64,000 nucleotides of DNA. Source: Amphirosellinia nigrospora (taxonomy: Eukaryota > Ascomycota > Sordariomycetes > Xylariales > Xylariaceae). How positions within the stretch are numbered: position 1 is the first letter of the stretch; each line of letters begins with the position of its first letter. Where the stretch lies: NCBI GenBank assembly GCA_004123355.1, contig SCHM01000001.1, positions 10,488,193 to 10,552,192 of the forward strand. Direction: 5' to 3'. Shown piece after piece: positions 36,184-48,815 of this stretch. The position numbers were made by a program, and so were the translations under genes. The notes under the pieces were generated by a model. That model was not told the origin of the DNA, ran no database searches, and worked only from the letters and a program-made list of their open reading frames with translations.

Positions 36184-37517
36184 ATGCGTTTGGTTGAGCT
36201 GATGAATAAGATAGGGCACAATAACGCTCTCCACAACGCGACACAATACAACATTGTCCTCTTTGCACCCCTTATAACCGTCAAACTTGACGAATTTAGT
36301 GACAAGGCGGACGAGGAATCGATTCACATCATACGAGGTAGGTATTCAAAATACCCGTATCGCCACAAAACCACGACTAACCGACCTTTTCAGAATTCTT
36401 GTCGTCGCTATTACCACAAGAGAAGACGGAGGCAAAGTCCCAAAAAGATCCTGGGTCTCCTAAGCCAACAGAGCTAAGATCGCCTGGCTCCCTGCAATCC
36501 GGATGTTTCGAAATGCTTGCGGCCTTTAGGAAGGACCGGTTAGAAAGCATAGGAGACTACAGCTTGTTTGGGAGCCAAGCAATTGAAGCACTAGAATGGG
36601 AGCATCTCAAATCAATATCAACCTGGCTGGCAACACCTGAATCTACCATCCTATTAATAGATGTGATAAATGAGCGGCCCGGTCCGTCATGGACGACAGA
36701 TTTTGTGTTGGAGATGGCGGACGTCTTGAAGACGGCGAACTTCGGCACTCTTGTCACCCACCTCTGTCGTAAAGAGAGTTCAGAGAATTATGGCGAAGAG
36801 GGTGTTCTTCAGGTTAGTATTCCACATTTTGTAGGCGATTAGAATAGATACGGTCGAATTCAGGACTTCTCAATTCTGCTTGGGTATTATGTTGGGACGT
36901 GAAGCAAATGCTAACTCCTATTAGGACATTCTTGCTCATATTATCGAATCCGATCTTGAAAGGCTCACCGAAGAAAAGTTATGTTCCACCGACTATCGAT
37001 CCGAAAAACTTTGGGAAATCATCGTTAAATGCCTCAAATCGTCACGGATACGCGTTCTTGTGATTATGCTCGACCGCATTGAGGAGATCTTCTTGCAGGG
37101 CTTAAATAATAATCCCGACAGGTTCCAGAAATTTGTTAATGATCTAAACCATTATACTAGAACTCTTCATACGGACCACGGCGTCATCGTTAAAACAATG
37201 GTGACTTGTAGATTGAAAGAGGCGGCTCTTTACTTCTATGAGGCTAAAGCTTCATACATATCGATTTGCAACCCGTCCCGTCGCAGGTTTCGCAATTAGG
37301 ACCAAAGAAATACGAGCAGCTTATAAACAACGACATTCCCACAGAATACAGTATACGTATCACGGGCTGAGGCGGAGAGAGGGGGGGAGGGAGTGGTTTC
37401 GCTCAAATTATCAACGAGCTCCGAACTGTTACCAAAGCCTACACAAGTGCTAGCAGTGTAGCCCGCACTTTATACAGTTTCGTGTTAGGGACTCTCGGTA
37501 AGCAAGACAAGAATTGA
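36184..37517 (+). CDS. STAND/NACHT-like NTPase, apparently without Walker A
   Basis: The start at 36184 (MRLVELMNKIGHN) and introns of about 36336-36392 and 36813-36924 are visible. The middle reads WEHLKSISTWLATPESTILL followed by SWTTDFVLEMADVL, then an RVLVIMLDRIEEIFLQ block. The last resembles the Walker B strand of fungal P-loop NTPases used in NLR-like receptors. HGVIVKTMVTCR looks like a sensor strand. I find no GxxxxGK[ST] loop, so ATP binding may be lost or the true domain differs. A one-base loss near 37262 truncates the reading at 37299; the next frame continues with DLQPVPSQVSQLGPKKYEQL and, after further breaks, ends at 37517. It is tail-to-tail with the AAA ATPase at 37594. The family call is tentative. 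Confidence 0.45.
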
Positions 37518-37593: not shown

Positions 37594-40107
37594 TCATGGG
37601 GATGGGCGCTGTGCTTGACAGGGCACCGCACGCTGAAGAAACTTAAGTCTGCTCTTGGGGTCTTCTGAATTCTCTTGTATGAGTTTTCGGAACTCTCGAC
37701 CTAATCTGAGCATTTCTTTTATGTGCTTAACATCCAGGTTCTCTAGAATCAAATAGTCAGCGCTTTCTCATCTGAGCGCATTGTGAGAAGAGTCGTAAAG
37801 ATATCTATCAGACAGTGGAAGAAGGATGTTTTGGTTACCGTACCATTTTCTTTGCGGGCCAGCGTCATAGCTGCTGTGATGCAGGTCTTGATTTGTCGGC
37901 CATTCATGGTAGTGTACGCTCCAGCCTCTGTTGTGTATAGTTCGACCTTGATGAATTGTTCCCACATTTTCTTCTCGTTCTCGGATGGATTCTCAAGTCG
38001 CAAAATCAAGTTTTTCCAAATGATCTTCTGTGCCTCGAAGCTGATATCTGGAAGCTGTATTGGCATAGTAATGCGCGATTCAAGAGCTTGATCAAGTATT
38101 TCAACACGGGTTGATGTTATGAAGAGCAAGGCCTCTGAATTGTCTAGGTGATTGAGGAAAATCGAAACTACGGCATATTGCCGCAAATCTTGTGTATCGC
38201 GTGCTCGAATAAACATGTCAGCCTCATCGAGTAGTAGCAGGGCTTTCCAATTGGCGGCTCGCAGGCAGATTTCTTGAAGCCGCTTCTCAAGTACATCCAG
38301 ATCCGTTCCTAGGTCGGCACATGTGATCTTGTATAGCGGAATTTTATACTTAGCTGCGAGACATTCTGCGCGCATTACGTCAGTGAAAAGGTGGAAGAGA
38401 AAGAGAGAGAGTCAAATTACCTGCTGTGAATGTTTTTCCTGTTCCAGGACCACCGTGTAAGAGAATGGTGAGTCCGCTTCCATTTCCTCTCACTGTGCCA
38501 TCGCTCTGTTTCATGGATTCATCCATTAGATAACTATGCACAGCAGAGTCAAGATACTTCTTATCGTTATCTTTTAGGACGAGTTGGTTAAGTGCATCGC
38601 TATGGCGCTGCACATCTCTGATATCTTCTGGTATAATCAACTCCCATGATTTGTGTTTCAGAGAGAACGCCCACATTCTGGATGGGCAGAAAAGCAAAGG
38701 ATTCTGTGCAACTTCCGGGAGGTCTTCGCTTTCTCTGTTCATACTCTCGGATGACCTTGTGCATACATCTGAGTCGTGCGGAGCATCTTCTGGGTAAGAG
38801 GGTAGTCCGCGAGCTTCTCCAAGACACGCAAAACAAGTTGAACTGCCTTGAATACGGCTCTGAATGTTCTGCACGAACTCCGCGTGCTTACTAGATGTTA
38901 CGTAGTCGATAACAATCTGGATAGGGCCCTGAGAGAATTGCGAGTCAGTGAATAATAGCTATGGTAGTAGGTTGGCGAATACCTGTCGCGAAGAACGAGG
39001 CCACGCTTGACCACAATATTCCTTGTGATTCACGTTTCGACTGTACTCCCAAAACTTCTTCCCTCGTTCTATAAGTGTTTCAGATAGACCATTACGGCAG
39101 GGGAAGTGCCAGTCAGGGATAACCTCAAGATCTCCGATTGGTAGCTCCGAAGAGTAACTACGCACCGTGAACACCTCGCGTTTGGGGATGAGCCTTTGCC
39201 CAGTCCCATCGAGATCCAGATAAAGACAGTGTATTAGCATCTCATTCAGACTCGAACTGGAATTTGACTCGATTCTCTCAACTTTGTACGCTCTCCAACC
39301 ACCCTCGTCCTTTGCGAAGACGGTTGCGCCTGGCGGGTAGATGAGCCATATATCTTCGAAAGAGATTTTCCTGCAGTTTCCAGCATCTACCTCATCGAGT
39401 TTGTCCATGTGCTAGGACGTTGCTCTTTAACGAACTCTAAAAGCAGATCAACATGATGGGGTGTATGTTTTCCTGGAACTTGTTGTGCAGCAAGCCGAAC
39501 TCTCTTCCGGTTATGGCAGAGCCATTCACAAGGGTCAACTATAGTCGACATAGGCGAGGATGAATCAGCTATTTGGAGGGTCCCCAAAGAGCCGACGGAA
39601 GCCTTTTTGAGCACACCGCTTAAGAGAGGACATATGATCCTTAAAGAAAGCTTCTCGTGTATAGGTTGTATCTCAAAAACCACATCGCCTGTAATACGAC
39701 TTTTTCGCTGTTGTTGTGTGCGATAGATTAGCGGTGACTATTGAAAGTGAGTGACCGGCTACAGTAATTGCATGAGTCCGTGATTTCAATACCTGAGATT
39801 TCCTGTGCAAGGATTGTTCATATAGTGGCTGTAATCCAAAAGACCCTACTGCAGTGCTACTCTCGTCTATAGACACAACAGCGTCTGAGTACCGCCTAGT
39901 TCTCGTGATCCCTTCGAGTTCGTGTGGGTTTGACCTTGTAGTAGGGGAGGAAATGGCACTACGATGAGACAAGTGACTAGTTAGGGAGACCGGTGAATCG
40001 TCTGGAGAACGCAAAATAGCTGCTGATGGGCGTGGATTGTTCGGGGTAGCTGGGGCGAGTTGCTCAACAGCCACCCTGGTAGCGGGCTTTGATGGCGACT
40101 GGCCCAT
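37594..40107 (-). CDS. Fungal AAA ATPase with N-terminal DUF7025-like domain
   Basis: This is a predicted AAA ATPase of a type common and often multiplied in filamentous fungi; its cellular role is mostly unknown. The start at 40107 (MGQSPSKPATRVAVEQ) precedes a disordered Ser/Pro N-terminus. An intron (about 39705-39790) joins LHRKSQ to RKSRITGDVVFE. A middle region (SFEDIWLIYPPGATVF, LPIGDLEVIPDWHFP, LIERGKKFWEY) matches the conserved N-domain. The ATPase core has GLTILLHGGPGTGKTFTA (Walker A, split by an intron about 38393-38426), WKALLLLDEADMFIRA (Walker B) and ALLFITSTR (sensor 1), with LESRI as the likely Arg-finger region. One-base losses near 39412 and 37760 separate the parts. The C-terminus is helical (DVKHIKEMLRLGREFRKL). 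Confidence 0.83.
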
Positions 40108-42045
40108 GTTGATTCAGGCAGCATAAAATGAAATCAGTCTACTTCCTAATACGCCCAAAAGAACGGCGAAGAACACCAGTGGAAGATTAAGTAGACCACA
40201 ATAGGTATTTCGTTGAAAACGAGATCCTCGGGGTGTATAATTTTGGGGGGTGACCATTAATAGGGGACCCCGCTCGAAATTCTTCACGCAGGGCTCAGAC
40301 ACTTGCCGCTCATCATCCTATTATTCTCCAACTGGCTTCTAGAGTATCTCACCGCCATAACTGCCACCCCCATCATGCAGGTGACACATGTCCCTGTAAG
40401 CTGCTGGTTCCGGCATCCATAGACAACGCGGTTTGGGAAGGGAGTGTACACCGAAGTCGATGGGCTGGACCAGTAAGCAGCGGTCATGATACCACCGCAT
40501 TATCACTACATCCTGTGATACGACGGCGGAATCCAAAAAGACTTAGTTCGATAGGATGTAGAGGTGCCGTATCCAATGAGGCATAGCCCTGGGTCTATCC
40601 CGTCCCAATATTCTAGTCCTCGTGCGTCTGCACCATGCTAGGAGCACTGCAAGCTCAGCTGTCACTGCAGCCACCACCCAGGATCGAGTAAGAGCTGCCC
40701 GAAGGGGTGATGAGTTGCCCTAGGCATGCAGATTTCGGACCCGTTCGCAAACTGATCTAAGACATAAGTTGACGAGGAACAAAGGGTCGTAGAGTGAGGT
40801 AAAAATCTTACCGCATACTATAAATAGGAGGATTTGGCTCTGAGATGATTCTGCTAGTATATGCTGGTGAACATGCCTTGATGAGCCCCTTATTACTGCA
40901 AGAGATTAGCAAATAAGCATGTTGCAAGTGCCCGTGTTGAAGTAACTGATGAGACTATATCCCCACACGTACAAGTTACGAGTCCTTTGCTATTATAAAC
41001 CGGTTATCACGAAGAGCCGAACTCAAGTTTGTCGCATCTATGAAATTACCGCGAAGTACACGGTGGGCTGACAAACGGGGGCACATCGATTTAGAGCGTA
41101 CCGCTCCCGGCTGGCCGTCGGATATAGGGGTACGGTGAATCCCCGAATCTGCCAGACTGCGCTTCTATAATCTAACTTCGTAAATTACAGAGGAAAGGAG
41201 ATATAATTCACGAAAACATGATGAAATTGATTGCGGAACCATAGTAGATCATCTACTGTAGATGTGCCTGTCGTTGATGGTGGTCTCTATTAATTGGCGA
41301 GCGGCTCTTACAGTCCTCGGTCTTCCTCTCTGACAATAATGGAATTACTATTATTCCGTTCCGCATGGTTAGCTGGTACGTACTCCAACAGGAGCCGATA
41401 AAGTAGATGGAGGGGTGATGTGTTATCTTCGATAAACGCTCCGAATTTGGTAGTCAGATGACCAAACGCTCCTGATTCGCAAGTCAAGTCGGTGTTGGGC
41501 GGCCTGGACTCTATGGCTGCAGTGTGCTTAGATAAGTGAGTCGGAAACGGAAGCGAGCAAATAATACGAGTTAATGCAGGATTCTGCTATTCTATTCATG
41601 CAGTGAGCGACGTCAGATTCTGTCGCTTAATATTTTAGTTTTTTCTTGCCTCTTCGTGGCACATTTTCCGCCTCCGATGAGATGGCGGTGTATTGTCGCC
41701 CTCCACAATAGGAACTGTTTAATACAATATAAATATCCTTTATTCATTGAGTAGGTTTCTGATTGTGGCTCTTGTATTTTCAACGTGTTACCTATCATAA
41801 TGCTTATGAAACCCCATCAGCCAGGGAGAGGGGTAGGACAGCTACTAATGAAATAACGCCACGCCTTTCTGGGCACCTGAATTGATTAGTATTGCGCCTG
41901 ATAAACAGACTCTATAAACTCAGATCCTGATTGAAGTTGATCATTAGATACATAACCCTTTCCCCCAAGATCTCAGTCAATCTGTTTTATCTGTTTCTTG
42001 TGAATATTTTGGTGTCACAGATAGGCAAACTCAGCTGCTCTCTCG
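40108..42045. other. Intergenic, 1.9 kb
   Basis: AT-rich. Short frames at 40114-40536 and 41613-41798 have no features I can support. It separates the AAA ATPase from the motif-bearing gene pair. Confidence 0.5.
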
Positions 42046-42709
42046 ATGGTATGTAATATCTAGACTTTTATATGGTCACTATGTTCTAACTCCGTATGCG
42101 AATCTATAGGACGTACTCGGTTCTGCCGCCGCCGTGGGCCAGCTACTCGCTCAAGCTATAAGCCTGTGGCAGCAAGTCCAAATCGCACGCGACAGCGTGA
42201 AGACAGCGCCCAAAGTGCTCGCCGACACATCCGCACAGTTAGCCAATTTATCGGATATCGTTCTCGATGTCGAGCGCCAACCAGAACTGCGGACATCCGA
42301 AATCTATGCACAAATCAACGTCATTAGATTCATTGCCACTGAGCTCTGCCAAAGATTGGAAGTCATGACAAAATTACAACAGAAGAGTGCCTTGCGACAG
42401 GGGCTTCGGGCATGGAGTCGGGGTCCAAGAGATGAGACCAAGTTAGCAGACGTCCTTAAGCGGTTACAAAATGCGAAGGGAGATCTCGTTCTCCGGATAA
42501 ACCTAGTTCATTTGAATATCACTGGCGGTATCGCTGATGAGATAGGGAGATTCGTGCAAGGCGCCGAGACTACAAATCAGCCTCAAACCGAGAAGGTGGT
42601 CAGTGGACATCGGTTATTGATCCAAGGGAACGAAGTCACGGAAATCGGCGATCAAATGAACGGTATAATGGGCTTGGAAGCTTCATCAAGACCTACCATG
42701 CAAAAATAA
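42046..42709 (+). CDS. SesA-like (NLR-associated N-terminal domain) protein with C-terminal amyloid-type motif
   Basis: The model uses an exon of only the ATG (42046-42048), an intron 42049-42109 (GTATGT to ATAG) and one long exon, giving an intact protein of about 200 residues. The N-terminal 150 residues (MDVLGSAAAVGQLLAQAISL, ARDSVKTAPKVLADTSAQLA, then ATELCQRLEVMTKLQQKS and LADVLKRLQNAKGDLVLRI) match the all-helical SesA type of domain found on fungal NLR-like receptors and on stand-alone cell-death effectors. The C-terminus is LLIQGNEVTEIGDQMNG followed by IMG (42620-42673), fitting N-x7-Q-x-N-G-I. The same pattern recurs twice in the next gene. Short SesA proteins with a terminal amyloid motif are typically activated by templating from a receptor; that role is inferred here. 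No receptor lies in the window. Confidence 0.68.
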
Positions 42710-43795
42710 TGGGAAATATAGCCCATGGAAAGCAGAGGAATTTTATCGGAGGAAAAGGGTCTTTAAAGATCATGCATGGGCTTGATATTTGATCTAAATC
42801 TAGCCCTGAAATGATATGCTTCTGAATGTAGACAATCAGTTTGTTCCACAATATTTCTGCAACGAGCTATAAGCTAGTCATACCTGAAACTGCACAATAA
42901 AGTGCACTTCGTATACAGTTAGATTGGCTGACAAAGATCGTCTTAAAGATCTCGCAACAACTATCAATGATCTATCTCAAGATATGCCTGTGACAATTAC
43001 AGTCCTAGCTTCTAATCCCATTTTACATAGAAAGAGGGTTTAGTTAGGGTGAAAAAACAGCAAACTTTGACTCCTTTTTTCTCATTGAGCCCTTGCCCTT
43101 GATATAAGAGTTCTAAAGAAGATTTGATAGATTTGTGGGGAGCTTTCCTGTACGGCTTGTATAAACTTTTGAATATAACGTGACTTCTGAGATGATAAAG
43201 GCTCACATTGATAGGACTAGCTTACGAACCCAATTATATCTCTTTGCACTATGACTATTAGTTTCCTTTATCCTACGGTTTATTCCCGACGAGGATTCTG
43301 ACAACTCTAGTTATAGAGCCTGCTTCATGTAGCGCGAGGACGCCGGAAAGCGAGAACAAATCATAATGCTCCGGCTTTTTTTCTTACAAGGTAGTGGGTG
43401 TCATGGTAATAGAATCCTTATCACAACCAACAGGGAATGCCGAAAGGATCACTACCACCCTACCAACAATTCCTTATGCTATTGGTTAGGTGCAATTGCA
43501 TGCATAAAAGCCACTTGAGGGGTAAGATTATATTGTAGTGACATATGGAGTGGGGGCAGATCATGGCTCATATTCAGCTGTGTCGTGAACTTGCTATAGG
43601 TAGCAGTAGCACCAGGGGCTGCCTCGTTTGCCTGTTTTAATGGTATGCGAACCAAGGAGCACGGCTCTACAATGTCTATAAACACCCTTCACTTCCCTCA
43701 CCTCAGTCCCAAGGTTCTGTTCTACTCACAAACCGTTTTTACCAGTGATAACTTCTCAAATTCCCGAAGAAAGAATTGCGTCCCGTGTGGTCATC
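42710..43795. other. Intergenic between the two motif-bearing genes
   Basis: AT-rich, with small chance frames on the - strand. No gene supported. Confidence 0.5.
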
Positions 43796-44545
43796 ATGGA
43801 TAAAATATTTGTTCGGTGTAATAGAGGTAAGTATCGCATAACCTTATGACTTCAGCCATGTACTAGCTATGTTATTTGCCGTCGTGGCTGATCAAAGTCC
43901 TAACTACGTATAGATGGAGGGGCTCCACGGACGTTCACCTTATCCCCTAAGGAATATACAACAGCAGACTTGAGACAAATGATTAAAGAAGGATTGAGTC
44001 ACGAAGGCCCAGTCAAGATGTATTTCCCCGGCTCCGGCATTGGAAAGGAGATTCGTGACCAAGACACGCTATCAGACCACTTCCCAAACGGGATGCACGG
44101 AGCGACTATCAACGTGGACTTGGAAAGCGATTCAGAGGATGATGGAAGTGACACGACAGGAGACGGACTCGTAAATGATCTCCAAATTGGCAAGTAATTC
44201 AATAAAATCGCGCCTTTCGATCACATATTGTTTATGCGCTAACTACTACTGTTCAACCATATAGGCGATAACGTATGCGACGAAGAGGCATCGCAGTTGA
44301 ACGCTATATTTGGCATCAGTGAAGTTCGAGGTCGCGCTACAAAAGCGCGCGTTGTTGGAAATAAGGCACATAAGTCTGCAATCCAAAGCAATGCAATTCT
44401 AAGTGGCATCGAGAGCTTCAAACTTCTCGTAAGCACAATGAAGCCAAAAGCCAATAGACGCCAAGTATTGGAGGTAAGAATATTCGCGAACAAAAAATAC
44501 ATAGATGTTAGTGACAATAAAGGAATCGATATATCAAAGCTGTAG
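43796..44545 (+). CDS. Ubiquitin-like-fold protein with two amyloid-type motifs
   Basis: Exons 43796-43826, 43914-44189 and 44265-44545 give an intact protein of 195 residues. The N-terminal 85 residues (KIFVRCNRDGGAPRTFTLSP, TTADLRQMIKEGLSHEG, PVKMYFPGSGIGKEIRD, GATINVDLE) have the strand-strand-helix-strand order expected of a ubiquitin-like beta-grasp fold; this is a judgement from pattern, not a match I can name. An acidic linker (ESDSEDDGSDTTGDG) follows. Two motif copies then occur, GDNVCDEEASQLNAIFG (44265-44314) and VVGNKAHKSAIQSNAILSG (44351-44410), with key Asn residues exactly 30 apart. Both fit N-x7-Q-x-N-A-I. A 50-residue Lys-rich tail ends DISKL. Intron 2 uses a GC donor (GCAAGT). 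No family name is assignable. Confidence 0.6.
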
Positions 44546-45291: not shown

Positions 45292-46808
45292 ATGGCTGCC
45301 AAGGTACCATCCGAAGGGCTCGAGAAGCTGAGCAGTGAGTACAATACACCGTGACAATATTCCTATGCCGAGTATTTCTGTATCTAACGTAAGAAACTGC
45401 CTAGTCAGCGACGCTGGTGTCAAGGCGGCGGCCAACGGCGGTGCGCAGAACGGTGGCGCGGCTGCGGCCGAACACTCGGGCGACGACACCGACGACGACG
45501 CCGATGCCCAGGCACCTGATGCTGCGCCAGGCGCTGCTAAAAAGAAGAAGAACAAGAAGCGAAAGCCCAGAAAGAAGAAGAAGGCCCCCACTGCCCAGAC
45601 CGACCCCCGAGCGTCTTGATGTCCGACCTCTTCCCGAACAAGACCTACCCCAAGGGCGAGGAAGTCGAGTACGTCAACGAGAACAGATACCGAACTACCG
45701 ACGAGGAGAAACGCCACCTGGACAACCTCGACCCGGACTTCCTCAGCGACTACCGCCAGGCCGCCGAGACCCACCGCCAAGTTCGCCAATGGGCACAGCG
45801 CAACATCAAGCCGGGCCAGAGTCTGACCGAGATCGCCGAGGGCATCGAGGACAGTGTCCGCCGATTGGTTGGCCATGACGGTCTGACCGAAGGCGATGCC
45901 ATTAAGGCCGGCATGGGATTCCCCACTGGAGTGAACCTCGACCATATTGCTGCCCACTACAGCCCAAATGCCGGCAACAAGACAATACTCCAGCAAAATA
46001 ATGTCATGAAGGTCGACATCGGTGTCCATGTCAATGGACGCATTGTTGACAGCGCCTTCACCATGGCCTTTGATCCTATGTACGATAACCTACTGGCCGC
46101 GGTCAAAGATGCCACCAACACGGGCGTCAAGGAAGCTGGTATCGATGTGCGCCTCGGAGAGCTTGGTGAGCGAATCCAGGAGGCCATGGAAAGTTATGAG
46201 TGTGAGATCAATGGAACAACTTATCCCATCAAGTCGATTCGCAACCTGAGCGGCCACACGATTCATCAATACAGCATTCACGGTACCAAGAGCGTTCCGA
46301 TTGTGAAGTCAGCCGATACTACCAAGATGGAGGAGGGAGATATTTTTGCCATCGAGACATTCGGCAGCACCGGCAACGGCTATGTTCATGACCAGGGCGA
46401 GGTCTCACACTACGCCCTCAAGAGCGATGCACCCAAGGTTGACTTGCGTCTGACCTCTGCCAAGTCTCTCCTGAACGTCATCAAGAAAAACTTTAGTACT
46501 ATCCCATTCTGTCGTCGATACCTAGATAGACTAGGACAAGATAAGTATCTGCTTGGGGTAAGGCGTTCTCCATCTCTATTATACCAGTTGGTGCCATTGC
46601 TCACATGAATATAGCTAACCAATCTTGTCCAATCTGGAATTGTGGAGGACTACCCACCCTTGTTGATAAGAAAGGGTCTTACTCTGCACAGTTCGAACAT
46701 GTAAGTCGCTCTGCGTACGAAATATATACATAGGACTAATCATCGAGATAGACGATCCTACTACGACCTACCGTGAAGGAAGTTATCAGTCGTGGTGAAG
46801 ACTACTAG
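45292..46808 (+). CDS. MAP2: Methionine aminopeptidase 2
   Basis: This cytosolic dinuclear-metal peptidase removes the initiator methionine from nascent proteins. The start at 45292 ([14 protein letters not shown]) and intron 45335-45404 lead into an acidic then poly-basic region ([15 protein letters not shown]) typical of type 2 enzymes. The catalytic domain has [20 protein letters not shown] (substrate His), [18 protein letters not shown] (metal Asp pair), [13 protein letters not shown] (metal His), [12 protein letters not shown] (metal Glu) and QFEHTILLRPT (last metal Glu). Two further introns lie at about 46558-46614 and 46700-46751. One-base losses occur in a C5 run near 45607 and near 46660. 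Full family length, about 440 residues; essential in eukaryotes. Confidence 0.95.
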
Positions 46809-48260: not shown

Positions 48261-48815
48261 CTAAGCCGAATCAGCCCCAGATCCATGGACCCGGGGTTTG
48301 TGGAGTCCACATCTTACTATAAGTTCCTTAGCGCGGCCGAGATGTGGGCTTAGAGGCCTCACGGTAAAGTTGCTGAGATTTCCATAACATGGTTTCTGTC
48401 GCATCAACTCCCGCCAATGCGCCATGGGGCCCGGCGCCCTGGACAACGACGCCATGGCGACGATGATGTCAGACTCGAAGCCCAGTGCCGTGTAAAGAAG
48501 GGCTCCTCTGTATAGGTCCGCGTTGGCTGACAACCTCCTCGAGATGAAGTAGTCATCTGTCGAAGCCACTTTTTCTATCTCGAGGGCGATCTCGAGGAGC
48601 GGTACCCTCGCCCGCATAGGGTTTCGCACCTGTTCGTCGATCGCCTCGCGAATGAAGATGGTGCGTAGATCCACTGTCTTGTAAATGCGATGACCGAAGC
48701 CAAACAGGTGGTGTCGCTTAGCCTTCACCTCTTCGATCAAGCGTGGGACATTGCTTTACTGAGGCAACGGCCTTGAACTCCCGGTAAGCTAGGTTTATGG
48801 CACCTGATCTCGCCT
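48261..48815 (-). pseudogene. C-terminal remnant of a citrate synthase-like enzyme
   Basis: The last 180 residues of a citrate synthase homologue are visible: GAINLAYREFKAVASVK, a one-base shift near 48755, then NVPRLIEEVKAKRHHLFGFG, HRIYKTVDLRTIFIREA, ALLYTALGFESDIIVAMASL and APGPMAHWRELM. HRIYK and the AHWRE block are active-site and substrate-binding regions. The N-terminal two thirds, with the first catalytic His, are absent upstream. The sequence resembles the secondary-metabolite or peroxisomal type more than the mitochondrial enzyme, but this is a judgement. Likely a relic. Confidence 0.7.

Follow-up and report, generated by a model that had tools for sequence, protein, structure and literature searches.

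The stretch of DNA analysed here, hereafter the window, comprises 64,000 nucleotides of Amphirosellinia nigrospora (assembly GCA_004123355.1, contig SCHM01000001.1, positions 10,488,193 to 10,552,192 of the forward strand). It carries three genes, which we term A, B and C, whose products share a short motif with conserved Q and N. The features are listed below in window coordinates.

36184..37299, + strand: gene C, receptor-like, without a P-loop, 315 aa (exons 36184-36337, 36394-36812 and 36925-37299)
36211..36270, + strand: r0, the single N-terminal motif copy IGHNNALHNATQYNIVLFAP, gene C residues 10-29 (pattern and matrix scans)
42046..42709, + strand: gene A, SesA-like, 200 aa as read in this assembly (exons 42046-42048 and 42110-42709)
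42620..42673, + strand: A r1, first C-terminal repeat IQGNEVTEIGDQMNGIMG (matrix scan)
42700..42792, + strand: A r2, the other C-terminal repeat AKIMGNIAHGKQRNFIGGKGSL..., not in the gene A frame in this assembly
43796..44545, + strand: gene B, predicted ubiquitin-like protein with a double-repeat tail, 195 aa (exons 43796-43826, 43914-44189 and 44265-44545)
43796..44128, + strand: predicted ubiquitin-like N-terminal domain of gene B, approximately residues 1-82 (end set by hand)
44190..44264, + strand: GC-AG intron of gene B (splice reading and relatives)
44186..44314 (44186-44189 + 44265-44314), + strand: B r1 IGDNVCDEEASQLNAIFG, spanning the intron
44351..44407, + strand: B r2 VVGNKAHKSAIQSNAILSG (splice model and matrix scan)

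The coordinates of B r1 and B r2 were derived by hand from the exons. A first-pass annotation had described three motif copies of identical spacing in two neighbouring intact genes. The copies, A r1, B r1 and B r2, are where it placed them and spaced as it described; the genes are not intact in the sense intended, since A r2 is out of frame and runs past a stop, and gene B requires a GC-AG intron. A further copy had been overlooked, namely r0, which belongs to the N-terminus of gene C, some 6 kb upstream. Other genes also occupy the region: an AAA+ ATPase gene (DUF7025, AAA, fungal AAA lid; 37749-40113, minus strand), in which a pattern scan detected no motif copy, lies between genes C and A; a Peptidase_M24 reading frame, presumably methionine aminopeptidase type 2, lies downstream of gene B (45541-46605, plus strand); and a C-terminal piece of citrate synthase is found at 48264-48755 (minus strand).

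A protein search with the 200-aa product of gene A found 21 relatives: eight from Xylaria, nine from other genera that we take to be Xylariales, one labelled Lasiodiplodia mahajangana and three without a name. Fourteen of the 21 are 215-230 aa long, and 17 carry both repeats in a single frame, the repeat pair being absent from P0017, P0018, P0020 and P0021. In the window, gene A meets a stop at 42707-42709 and the frame of r2 continues past it; the 26-base spacer between r1 and r2 is, by inspection, too short for an intron. The same frame break was seen in the genome search, which is not independent proof because the assembly is the same. The break may reflect a genuinely truncated allele or a fault in the assembly; with gene A interrupted here, part of the local cluster may no longer function.

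Judged on its sequence, the N-terminal domain of gene A is at best SesA-like. SesA (PF17107) is among the matches listed for six of 22 family members (best E 0.0022), and the SesA scores of three members reach 11.4-17.4 bits against a curated cut-off of 26.3; the family profile also matches, with E 3.8e-4, an ORF of the fungus's own genome that is itself a SesA above cut-off. In that 48.1-Mb genome no close second copy of gene A was found, the distant matches having 25-27% identity. PDB sequence searches with gene A and with gene C returned only designed proteins or chains that we took as unrelated. One distant gene A relative elsewhere in the genome (L007:1309-1917, minus; G000:C1:1078178-1078594) ends in the tail DNMTIAGVQMSGTAFMNN, in which a PP-like motif is possible by eye; roughly 4 kb from it, at C1:1073521, there is an NPHP3_N match. 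Another locus (L012; G000:C6:5809859-5810947) holds one 717-aa open frame with SesA and NB-ARC matches, an all-in-one NLR layout known from the literature.

The gene B protein quoted in the first pass is obtained only with the GC-AG intron at 44190-44264. Splicing from the alternative GT donor at 44194 leads to a stop ahead of the motif, and four of four Xylaria relatives read through as GC-AG splicing predicts. Because this intron falls within the first codons of B r1, nearly the entire tail is encoded on the last exon. Both repeats are kept in all four relatives, and the window copy of gene B is the only one found in the 48.1-Mb genome. The predicted structure of the product has a beta-grasp fold, with strands modelled at low confidence at both repeats. 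The model matches both PB1 and ubiquitin-like fold groups; we call gene B ubiquitin-like rather than PB1 because ubiquilin-3 and ubiquitin rank first in Foldseek and because the sole PDB sequence match is ubiquilin-1, which at E 0.82 is not significant. At its 3' end (44450-44545) the window reading extends about 30 residues past its relatives, and a GTAAGA at 44474 suggests an additional intron or a lost stop.

Gene C, whose introns read GTAGGT..TTTCAG and GTTAGT..TATTAG in the splice model, has six relatives of 327-383 aa at 48-64% identity, and it too has only its window copy in the 48.1-Mb genome. An AAA+/STAND-type fold was predicted for a relative, and on structural models gene C would adopt a STAND-type NTPase fold. 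A Walker A P-loop occurs in none of the seven gene C proteins; instead, all seven keep the replacement GxSW[TA]TD and a similar length (315-383 aa). No C-terminal sensor repeats are present in gene C, whose frame ends at 37299, the frame of the convergent AAA gene ending at 37749. An NCBIfam search gave nothing above its cut-offs, and hhalign of gene C against pieces of the own-genome NPHP3_N loci, a crude comparison, gave no sensible alignment. Within r0, eight motif positions (G, N, A, A and QYNI) are invariant in all seven proteins, with poorly conserved linkers alongside; the motif is the conserved island of the N-terminus. A low-confidence model places r0 in a helix (pLDDT 24-57).

Whether these stretches are truly related was addressed with several controls. 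The first-pass pattern, N-x7-Q-x-N-[GA]-I-[FLM], occurs three times in the six frames against a mean of 0.007 and a maximum of 1 in 300 residue shuffles, the pattern having been fitted to the same data; the bare N-x7-Q-x-N spacing occurs seven times against a mean of 3.2 and a maximum of 9, which is not significant alone. The relatives provide stronger evidence, through profile comparison. The A and B tails align with an hhalign score of 53.4 over 58 columns, reached by none of 295 column shuffles (maximum 21.0; a further five of the 300 gave no result), and the C N-terminus aligns with the B tail at 28.9, reached by none of 300 (maximum 18.1). Whole C against whole B scores 28.8, reached by none of 100 shuffles. 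The C N-terminus against the A tail scores 11.4, reached by 46 of 300 shuffles and hence not significant, although the motif columns align. Untrimmed hhalign probabilities are 95.6% for A-B, 11% (P 0.0027) for C-B and 0.2% for C-A. These alignments contain the window rows, and rows less than 30% filled were dropped from the A and B tails. Since C-B is significant and C-A alone is not, gene C joins the motif set via gene B.

Matrix scans were a further control. With a matrix that draws on A and B relatives only (21 of 24 sequences used, two near-duplicates and one wrong 17-mer left out), r0 ranks fourth in the six frames of the window, after A r1, B r2 and B r1; its score of 16.0 exceeds the maximum of 40 shuffles (15.7) and the next unrelated site (15.5) by a narrow margin. 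A gene-C-only matrix ranks B r2 second (14.7) and B r1 fourth (13.3), and a gene-A-only matrix ranks r0 fourth (14.2), all within the null range. The Xylaria A r2 copies, two residues shorter, lie outside the matrices. Of 34 proteins, 28 contain the spacing N-x-[AVC]-x5-Q-x-N. These computations show homology between the A and B tails and between r0 and B r1; chance alone is ruled out by the shuffle controls for the A-B and B-C likenesses, not for A-C taken alone. Of the co-functioning pair proposed in the first pass, the homology of the tails and the conservation of both repeats (17 of 21 A relatives, four of four B relatives) are supported; the set is one of three genes, of which A is cut.

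The layout of the copies, one on the receptor-like C and two each on A (in 17 of 21 relatives) and B, is that published for HET-s/NWD2, with one copy on the STAND protein and two on its partner (PMC4518210). Of the 21 relatives with both repeats (17 A and four B), 18 have r1 and r2 of opposite net charge; among 2349 windows of the same spacing taken upstream in these proteins, the proportion is 32%; as the sequences are related and share descent, these are not 21 independent cases. In two gene B orthologues the two charge signs are swapped together. The window copies carry net charges of -4 (A r1), +3 (A r2), -4 (B r1), +2 (B r2) and 0 (r0); in the gene C relatives r0 ranges from -1 to +3. The window r0 holds no D, E or K, and that of each of the six relatives holds one. 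Charge complementarity is described for HET-s-related motifs, as is the paucity of D, E and K in r0 copies (both PMC4518210). In relatives, A, B and C lie on contigs of equal length in X. longipes, X. acuta and X. curta, and A and C do so in X. telfairii and Astrocystis sublimbata, the neighbourhoods being deduced from contig size and not from positions. X. scruposa yielded only a B relative and X. polymorpha only a C relative.

The first pass had called the motif HET-s-related, which in the strict sense is not supported: in the register with N at position 3, all 42 repeats of the 21 relatives, compared without gaps, lack the invariant HRAM glycine at position 19 (a glycine stands two places earlier in 31 of 42), and the HRAM hydrophobic pattern is not followed, positions 5, 8, 10, 16 and 18 being hydrophobic in 39, 14, 5, 29 and 22 of 42 repeats, respectively, with T allowed. 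These two results rule out HRAM membership. The HRAM layout is nonetheless present, with two C-terminal repeats of complementary charge and a copy on a nearby STAND protein; the exceptions are the out-of-frame A r2 of the window, four of 25 A and B relatives without the pair and three of 21 pairs without opposite charges. The HET-s, PP and sigma Pfam families (including PF11558 and PF17108) are listed for none of the 23 proteins whose family lists are complete (window A, B and C, four B, six C and ten of the 21 A relatives), at E limits of 10 for window A and B, 5 for the B family and 1 for window C, the six C relatives and the ten A relatives. PF11558 matches only 38 of 155 HRAM proteins (PMC4518210). 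The published sigma, PP and PUASM consensus patterns match none of 34 proteins, by which membership in those families is ruled out.

A rival reading is that the tail is a real shared interaction module of non-amyloid type: through a docking repeat, folded or coiled, A and B, perhaps with C, would form an ordinary complex. The lack of any match to the tested amyloid patterns in 34 proteins, the missing glycine 19, the low confidence of the models at the repeats and the helix predicted at r0 all favour such a module. We nevertheless regard it as fairly unlikely, because r0 on a receptor with r1-r2 on its partners is a published mark of amyloid signalling, as are the conserved Q and N, the opposite charges of r1 and r2 and the occurrence of the same tails on unrelated domains.

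The search for further receptors bears on a second alternative. A matrix scan over the regions upstream of 60 NPHP3_N matches in the own genome (189,729 bases) gave nothing above the null: the best score, 16.2, fell on a P-loop, and the null 95th percentile was 16.9 (20 shuffles). The genome list holds 122 NPHP3_N matches, and NACHT and NB-ARC matches were covered where they coincide with the 60 regions. A receptor as degenerate as C would escape such a list, since C itself is absent from it. The support that the first pass sought, copies of the motif at receptor N-termini, exists in the STAND-like gene C of the same window and was not found in the 60 upstream regions. One could propose that the tail is common to A and B only, distributed by exon shuffling, and that the C N-terminus resembles it by coincidence or through convergence. 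In favour of this are the non-significant comparison of C with A, the location of the B tail almost entirely on one exon and the shortness of the shared stretch, about 18 columns. This is improbable in view of the C-B alignment, unmatched in 300 shuffles, and of the conserved island in all seven C proteins, and the absence of scores above the null in the 60 upstream regions likewise tells against it. Least probable is a decaying remnant of an NLR-effector locus, suggested by the cut gene A and by a C that lacks Walker A and repeats, given that gene A is uncut in 17 of 21 relatives; all seven C proteins keep the replacement and the length, and B and C have good frames and splice sites, so that the P-loop loss looks old and kept.

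We favour, as reasonably probable, the reading that A, B and C constitute a three-gene amyloid-type signalling cluster. Its layout, its conservation and the predicted folds of B and C were established by computation; the amyloid state, the templating, the cell death and the role of B are what we infer from them. Gene C would be the receptor-like part, bearing r0 near the N-terminus of a STAND/AAA+-type core. Upon assembly of C, its r0 copies, brought together, would take on a cross-beta fold and so template the conversion of the r1-r2 tails of A and B. Within each tail r1 would stack on r2, and the converted A would then act at membranes; by analogy, gene A is probably a membrane-acting cell-death effector. 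Gene B may provide a second output; alternatively, its ubiquitin-like domain may tag the assembly or restrain it, or B may be a brake that recruits the ubiquitin machinery. Since C has neither P-loop nor sensor repeats, its trigger must differ from that of NWD2, and the missing P-loop makes an ATP-driven switch of the NWD2 kind unlikely; partnering with another STAND protein, or a dose-driven assembly, could serve instead. Several results tell against the cluster reading: the non-significant C-A comparison, the narrow or null matrix scores, the weak SesA matches, the cut gene A, the helix modelled at r0, and a C that has no sensor repeats and no Walker A, whereas P-loop dependence is reported to have been tested for NWD2 and PLP-1 (PMC12881547).

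In form, the motif agrees with no published pattern against which it was compared, and we read it as a putative new variant of amyloid signalling. More tentatively, and with some doubt, we propose that N-x-[AVC]-x5-Q-x-N-x-[IV] may define a distinct motif family of Xylaria and its kin, in which a P-loop-less, sensor-less receptor seeds both SesA-like and ubiquitin-like outputs. Amyloid signalling motifs are short and difficult to detect by profile, and the present cluster contributes another candidate family, one whose receptor/effector layout is clear. If the proposal is true, a prion-like signal would be linked through the ubiquitin-like protein to the ubiquitin or proteasome machinery, which would either execute it or switch it off, and a ubiquitin-like output and a receptor side without an ATP-binding motif would widen the known scope of such systems. 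They would also raise the question of how an NLR-type signal can start without a P-loop.

A literature search by titles and abstracts found no system of this A/B/C kind. In HET-S/NWD2 and HRAM1-5 (PMC4518210, PMC3321046), as here, two C-terminal repeats of opposite charge are carried by a HeLo-related protein and an N-terminal copy by a nearby STAND protein; unlike those motifs, the present one lacks glycine 19 and the hydrophobic pattern and has a ubiquitin-like partner, and the STAND-like gene C, unlike NWD2, has no P-loop and no repeats. A domain of the ubiquitin clan, the Crinkler domain, is found at some NLR N-termini (PMC9815663). The sesA/sesB/het-eN sigma cluster of Nectria haematococca (PMC3321046) resembles the locus in having three genes, a common tail and a SesA-like member, and in pairing two effector-side proteins with unrelated N-terminal domains with one STAND-side protein; in contrast, GxGxQFN and GGTQN occur in none of 34 proteins, and a ubiquitin-like protein replaces the SesB lipase. 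The provisional GDQN motif, NxxxGxQYxxxGxGDQNxVSxxxxQxN, belongs to a SesA/probable-NLR pair of Fusarium oxysporum (PMC12261475). Compared by pattern and not by profile, its full form and its exact second half are found in none of 34 proteins; that half, NxVSxxxxQxN, nevertheless shares the N(+8)Q(+10)N spacing and the V at +2, and the one published pair likewise joins a SesA partner to a probable NLR. Finally, while the G-h-Q-h-G core of the PP triad HELLP/SBP/PNT1 (PMC5485727) is present in none of 34 proteins, that triad offers the same architecture as the one proposed here, in which one NLR addresses two different effectors through one motif.
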